Made by a program: the position numbers and the translations under genes. A DNA stretch of 64,000 nt from Bacillus sp. FJAT-27916 (GTDB lineage: Bacteria; Bacillota; Bacilli; Bacillales; Pradoshiaceae): the NCBI RefSeq assembly GCF_001183965.1, contig NZ_LFZV01000001.1, positions 2,717,031 to 2,781,030 on the forward strand, given 5' to 3'. The first letter of the stretch is position 1, and each line of letters starts with the position of its first letter. Positions 5,009 to 51,157 of this stretch are shown here, in pieces. The notes below the pieces were generated by a model that worked only from the letters and a program-made list of their open reading frames with translations, made no database searches and was not told the DNA's origin.

Positions 5009-5181
5009 GGCTTGGTTAATTGATAGTCGTATACCGCCCATCACGTATCAGGCAGTTGACCTCTGGGGGAATTAACGCACAGGGGAGACTGAGCAGATGC
5101 CTGGGAACACCTCAAAGAGGCTCCCCGCCCCTTGTTTTCCTGCCGACTGCAGCGAAAATCAACACATAAGCGTAACAAGCC
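5009..5181. repeat. MITE-like inverted-repeat element (copy A)
   Basis: This 173-bp element has imperfect terminal inverted repeats, GGCTTGGTTA at 5009-5018 and TAACAAGCC at 5173-5181. It is flanked one base outside by ATAAAA on both sides (5002-5007 and 5183-5188), a possible target duplication. Its minus strand is clearly related to the plus strand at 50914-51102. Shared blocks in the same order include TGTTGATTTTCG-TGCAG, CGGGGAGCCT, CATCTGC, GTCTCCC, GTCAAC-GCCT and CGGTAT. It has no coding capacity; a 70-codon open frame inside is spurious. It abuts the T-tract of the sigG terminator. Confidence 0.75.
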
Positions 5182-5183
5182 CA

Positions 5184-5215
5184 TAAAAAAAGGAAGGGAG
5201 CAAACGCTCTCTTCC
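5184..5215 (-). terminator. Rho-independent terminator after sigG
   Basis: A 10-bp stem, GGAAGAGAGC/GCTCCCTTCC on the minus strand (5215-5206 and 5201-5192) with the loop GTTT, is followed by TTTTTTTAT. It lies about 100 bases past the sigG stop and directly next to repeat copy A. Confidence 0.88.
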
Positions 5216-44119: not shown

Positions 44120-44192
44120 TTCAAATCCCACCTCTTTCTGACATCATGATTAATTATGCTCGCGGCAGAAATGACAGATTCCTATTTTAAAA

Positions 44193-44281
44193 GACTCTGT
44201 TAAACGGTACGCATCGATTAAGCTAATCTCAAGGAAGCGCAAAAGGAGTACCGTAATACAAATCAATGGTTTAACAGAGCC
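44193..44281. repeat. MITE-like inverted-repeat element (copy C, 89 bp)
   Basis: The ends GACTCTGTTAAAC (44193-44205) and GTTTAACAGAGCC (44269-44281) are inverted repeats with one mismatch. An inner perfect repeat ACGGTAC/GTACCGT lies at 44204-44210 and 44248-44254. The 8-bp flanks TTTTAAAA (44185-44192) and TTCTAAAA (44282-44289) match in 7 of 8, a likely target duplication. It has no coding capacity. The ends match those of the elements at 5009 and 50914, but the interior differs. Confidence 0.72.
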
Positions 44282-44285
44282 TTCT

Positions 44286-44320
44286 AAAAAAATCGGCCTA
44301 ACGATAGCGTTAAGCCGATT
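44286..44320 (-). terminator. Terminator after ctaF
   Basis: The stem AATCGGCTTAACG/CGTTAGGCCGATT with a 4-base loop is followed on the minus strand by TTTTTTTAG. The tract is shared with the edge of repeat copy C. Confidence 0.88.
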
Positions 44321-50856: not shown

Positions 50857-50913
50857 CGGATCATACATCCGATTCCTATCGATGCTTAATAGTGAGTTAC
50901 CATCTAAACAAAA

Positions 50914-51102
50914 GGCTCTGTTAATTCAAGGTGTTGATTTTCGTTGCAGACGGCTGCGCACCTAGGGGCACTCGGGGAGCCTCCTTGAGTGCTTGTTCAC
51001 ATCTGCAGGGTCTCCCTGTCCGCTAATCTAAGCAAGGCGTCAACCGCCTTCCACCACATTCGACGGTATTCTCATATCTCAACATTCATCGTTAACAACA
51101 CC
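50914..51102. repeat. MITE-like inverted-repeat element (copy B, 189 bp)
   Basis: The ends GGCTCTGTTAA (50914-50924) and TTAACAACACC (51092-51102) are imperfect inverted repeats. The element is flanked exactly by ACAAAA at 50908-50913 and 51103-51108, a likely 6-bp target duplication. It is homologous to the minus strand of 5009-5181 along its length. The core is GC-rich with the CGGGGAGCCTCC and GGGTCTCCCTGTCCGC words typical of a repeat dispersed in Bacillaceae intergenic DNA (from memory). It has no gene. It abuts the pycA terminator. Confidence 0.8.
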
Positions 51103-51104
51103 AC

Positions 51105-51148
51105 AAAAAAAAGCTGTACACCTGCTACTAACACAGATGTACAGCTTT
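51105..51148 (-). terminator. Terminator after pycA
   Basis: An 11-bp perfect stem, AAAGCTGTACA/TGTACAGCTTT, is followed on the minus strand by T8 and GTGG. The tract forms the edge of repeat copy B. Confidence 0.9.
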
Positions 51149-51157
51149 ATTCATGAT

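Follow-up and report, generated by a model that had tools for sequence, protein, structure and literature searches.

Three repeats in a 64,000-nucleotide stretch (hereafter the window) of a 4.15-Mb Bacillus-like genome are MITEs: their ends are inverted repeats (GGCTCTGTTAAA..TGTTGAT), and each is flanked by an 8-bp target duplication rich in A/T. Each adjoins a terminator with an intact hairpin, belonging to a gene on the minus strand, and meets it at the A-tract, the T-tract of the coding strand. We think it likely that a transposase of the IS1595 family mobilises these MITEs in trans and chooses the T-tract behind a terminator hairpin about half the time.

Results

The elements lie downstream of genes for which we keep the names sigG, ctaF, and pycA given in the sequence-only reading of the window. 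Downstream of sigG, a decayed copy of a ~190-bp MITE (5009..5182, minus strand) is flanked by the 8-mers TATAAAAT and ATAAAAAA; the latter, the right copy of the target duplication (5183-5190), overlaps the A-tract (~5185-5191) of the sigG terminator (5183..5215, minus strand; hairpin 5192-5215). The pycA element, 189 bp long (50914..51102, plus strand), belongs to the same ~190-bp family and lies between AAACAAAA (50906-50913) and ACAAAAAA (51103-51110), next to a terminator at 51103..51148 on the minus strand (A-tract 51105-51112) whose hairpin (51148-51110) is one of the strongest in its stretch. Downstream of ctaF is an 89-bp MITE (44193..44281, no strand assigned) that has the common ends (GACTCTGTTAAAC and GTTTAACAGAGCC) with a different interior; its target duplication is TTTTAAAA (44185-44192) and TTCTAAAA (44282-44289), and the ctaF terminator occupies 44282..44320 on the minus strand (A-tract 44286-44292, hairpin ~44291-44320). 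One duplicate of every window copy belongs to the A/T tract of the terminator, and the duplications are imperfect, with 6-7 of 8 positions matching, as in old copies. The sequence-only reading had described three repeats docked on the terminator tails of these genes, and both its coordinates and its description are borne out. An Rfam search of the window returned just ylbH and one T-box, both away from the elements.

The order of events can be read from congeners. G002 has the sigG and pycA terminators, and G001 the ctaF terminator, in element-free form; the ctaF element itself is common to our genome and G002 (L122). Since the congeners keep the terminators without the elements, the terminators are older, having served as targets, and do not owe their existence to the elements.

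The GGCTCTGTTAAA end is strongly over-represented in relatives, with 164 matches against 6 for the reversed pattern in 11 genomes, and the elements that it delimits are mostly 60-300 bp long and carry 8-bp duplications. Such ends and duplications were seen across about 65 copies; many duplications in relatives are perfect (e.g., TTTTATTA, AAAATCAA, AAAATAAA, TAAATAAA, and TATCTAAA), in a sample that favours perfect ends. A search with a degenerate-end pattern gave mostly noise. None of eight element loci had an Rfam match; given this, and given DNA-transposon ends and duplications, a group IIC intron (a self-splicing RNA with a reverse transcriptase) was rejected as the identity of the repeats. 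A GC-rich core, GCTTTCCGCGGGGCGGTCGGGGAGCC..., is also found without GGCTCTGTTAAA ends in G012 and other relatives (one of which has as many as 256 candidates) and in a second type of composite repeat in our genome (L101, L104, L108, and L112); it may be an abundant repeat in its own right.

Of the 22 copies that could be mapped in our own genome, 15 come within 20 nt of the start of a T-tract at one edge; L103 and L107, judged by eye, bring the number to 17. A larger dispersed repeat, with flanks like TTGGGACATAACT, carries the MITE and a shared terminator-like hairpin at L002, L003, L004, L006, L009, and L064. Because this repeat carries MITE and hairpin together, the docked pair spread as one unit; L002, L003, L004, L006, and L009 look like a single old docking event copied within the larger repeat, and their arrangement was counted once. 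Other copies have distinctive neighbours: at L055 (717-2818, near C1:291583) a MITE lies within an IS1182-type element with ends AAAAGGGGCTGTCCCATAAGTC, and two further copies, assessed by eye, lie directly behind an apparent group II intron 3′ end (L007, 1340-1440) and, in the right flank of L068, behind an apparent T-box leader terminator, between leader and gene.

Docking was tested by rebuilding the empty site of each well-delimited copy and calling terminators on both strands; a copy was scored as docked when its target lay -3 to +8 nt from the start of a T-tract. The nulls were drawn from the copy's own intergenic region, either from all of its positions or from all of its 8-mers with at least 7 of 8 A/T. 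After deduplication, 27 of 60 well-delimited intergenic MITEs from several genomes were docked, with gene borders taken from mechanical ORFs and terminators predicted from sequence, against 4.6 expected under uniform placement and 12.6 at AT-matched sites (p<5e-6 for both). Within the same intergenic regions, docking is enriched about 6-fold relative to uniform placement and 2-fold relative to AT-matched sites; about half of the copies remain undocked, and the docked position is narrow, 1-7 nt from the T-tract start. Because stems as first called ran into the T-tract, terminal T pairs were trimmed from them, and the docking window and thresholds underwent a single adjustment; the untrimmed measure gave 30 of 59, and the deduplicated, trimmed count should be preferred. 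Hairpins with long loops escape the terminator caller, so we added a threshold-free folding test, which agrees with the adjusted window: the 36 nt beside the MITE target fold with a median of -11.7 versus -4.6 kcal/mol (p=1.8e-7; p=1.7e-5 against AT-matched sites). The enrichment over random intergenic placement that the sequence-only reading proposed to look for is therefore found, and the insertion orientation relative to the hairpin, which it also raised, is free (9 versus 12).

Survivorship could in principle yield such a pattern: elements would insert at any A/T-rich intergenic site, and those that fell behind a terminator, hurting no gene, promoter, or transcript, would persist. All of the insertions that we see are fixed and have already passed through selection, and only 4 of 65 well-delimited copies lie within a predicted ORF, as this explanation would have it. 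The null, however, was drawn within the same intergenic regions, and the position remains sharp; the neighbouring genes are mostly tandem or divergent and not convergent (22 ++, 16 --, 12 -+, and 9 +-); and IS1182 in the same genome occupies the hairpin loop instead, so that position is specific to the family. We consider survivorship by itself unlikely, though it may have contributed, and the suggestion in the sequence-only reading that the elements target these sites, as opposed to surviving there at random, gains support from the within-intergenic null, the sharp position, and a hairpin effect beyond AT content.

That hairpin effect also bears on a pure A/T preference, in which the transposase would simply want A/T-rich 8-mers and the T-tract would be the commonest such site between genes. 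In a conditional logit model the target's AT content predicts insertion strongly (coefficient 1.45 per A/T base), and AT matching lifts the expected number of docked MITEs from 4.6 to 12.6; yet the excess over AT-matched sites remains, and with AT content and homopolymer run in the model a neighbouring hairpin still carries an odds ratio of 7.3 (p=3e-8), which makes this explanation quite improbable. Homopolymer runs count for ISL3 only and not for the MITEs. Terminator A/T tracts, singled out as the target in the sequence-only reading, are indeed targets; since the neighbouring hairpin matters, the tract alone is insufficient as an explanation.

The predicted parent of the MITEs is an IS1595-family transposon with identical ends. 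When viral contigs were scanned, an element of 1611 bp (L316) came to light that has MITE-type ends and a perfect 8/8 duplication, TTAAATTA; its 342-aa protein is an IS1595-family transposase by model NF033547 (221 bits, cut-off 75) and by PF12762. Homologues occur in 97 of 397 Bacillales genomes, including G001 of the same genus, and the ends of their elements, ..AATGTTGATTTT and ..AATGTTGATATT, match both MITE ends; GGCTCTGTTAAA..TGTTGATTTT and ..TGTTGATATT are common to MITEs and autonomous IS1595 elements. These autonomous elements dock as well (7 of 14; expected 0.7 uniform, 1.4 AT-matched). Our own genome (G000) has no IS1595 transposase match at E<=1e-30; in the absence of an autonomous copy by this measure, mobilisation there is historical and the copies are now orphans, and a transposase in the same genome is not a defining feature of MITEs. 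The autonomous element also has a second gene (L316, 4155-4427) for a 90-aa zinc-ribbon protein (PF12674).

Other parents were considered. IS1182/IS1272 was set aside because the IS1182 ends in our genome differ, and an IS1272-type (IS1182) insertion into the hairpin because the hairpins are intact and 8-bp duplications are present. Plasmid records with end-like sequence yielded no autonomous parent; a Geobacillus match has a nested IS1182 beside the end. Mobilisation by the resident ISL3-family transposase in place of IS1595 is very unlikely: our genome has five ISL3 copies, four of them on terminator T-tracts with 8-bp duplications, and GG[CT]TCT..TGTTG is common to ISL3 and MITE ends, but the ISL3 terminal repeats (GG[CT]TCTA..TGTTGGGGT, not ..TGTTGAT) are absent from the MITEs, the IS1595 ends fit them much better, the target habit differs in the ISL3 preference for homopolymer runs, and ISL3 matches are absent from 13 of 14 genomes tested, almost all of which carry the MITE.

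ISL3 has a terminator habit of its own. Elements of this family were docked in 17 of 44 cases (expected 3.6 uniform, 10.2 AT-matched; p=0.0018 AT-matched), folding beside their targets has a median of -12.05 versus -4.95 kcal/mol and is significant against AT-matched sites too, and a neighbouring hairpin has an odds ratio of 3.8 (p=5e-4, conditional logit). The 8-bp targets of the four docked copies in our genome (L091, L092, L094, and L095), such as TTTTTTTT and CTTTTTTA, lie in the terminator T-tract. All four near-identical IS1182 copies of our genome (L056, L057, L058, and L059, at C1:730589, 1072866, 2058519, and 3347960) have inserted into a hairpin that resembles a terminator, within its loop, where a short stretch of loop sequence (for example TCATATAG, CTTTAAAG, or GCAATTAG) is duplicated; with IS1182 in the loop in the same genome, each family has its own position at the terminator. 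Targeting is thus not confined to this repeat: it characterises two families of transposons, IS1595 and, independently of it, ISL3.

Discussion

We suggest that an IS1595-family transposase mobilises the non-autonomous MITEs in trans and would insert them into A/T-rich DNA with an 8-bp target duplication, probably choosing the T-tract immediately behind an intrinsic-terminator hairpin about half the time. The element would end up downstream of the hairpin, with the duplication keeping hairpin and T-tail adjoining, and from the intact hairpin and tail we expect that the terminator still works. Site choice, and not survival, would produce the pattern; the hairpin may be read as structure (a cruciform or bent DNA) or by way of a paused or terminating RNA polymerase. 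Docking of this kind may amount to the "safe-haven strategy" that the sequence-only reading saw in it. If active targeting is true, it offers a simple reason for spread without harm to genes, makes the prediction of sites possible, and poses a tractable question, namely whether the transposase reads DNA structure or termination itself.

More tentatively, we speculate that IS1595 (with its MITEs), ISL3, and, in the loop, IS1182, as mutually unrelated DDE families of Bacillaceae, have all converged on intrinsic terminators, that their transposases could sense the extruded hairpin or the terminating RNA polymerase complex, and that DNA transposons of bacteria could use termination generally as a signal for docking; this broader proposal is possible, though we would not call it probable.

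Terminator docking is already known for group IIC introns, which insert behind terminators, and for the hairpin-breaking IS1272. Here it takes the form of clean insertion, with a duplication, by two additional families of transposons, unrelated to one another, and by their miniature derivatives in many Bacillales; a search of a literature library, subscription papers and ISfinder pages apart, returned no report of terminator targeting by IS1595 or ISL3. A large survey of IS goes no further than to note that IS1595 and ISL3 are over-represented between same-direction genes (PMC9208149). In Enterococcus, a vanHAX insertion that is bounded at one end by an ISL3 element and accompanied by an 8-bp duplication lies in the terminator of an rRNA operon (PMC11702846); it is in keeping with the docking pattern, even though the authors report that the hairpin is disrupted.

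The elements described here share with IS1595-family IS and their MITEs the same ends, the 8-bp duplication, and the transposase family of the autonomous relatives. IS1272 and TnSha1 of the IS1182 family target terminator hairpins, deleting part of the hairpin and making no target duplication (PMC4923244), whereas the elements described here target the T-tract, leave the hairpin whole, and generate an 8-bp duplication. For group IIC introns the recognised target is a stem-loop, and they insert beside this DNA structure (PMC10190682), but they are ribozyme retroelements that have neither terminal inverted repeats nor duplications, and the elements here are DNA elements. The Mutator-like TnGBS, ISLre2, and ISKra4 target sites 15-17 bp upstream of sigma-A promoters, mostly in one orientation (PMC3942029); as here, their position is fixed relative to a transcription signal, and the difference is that our elements use terminators, in either orientation.
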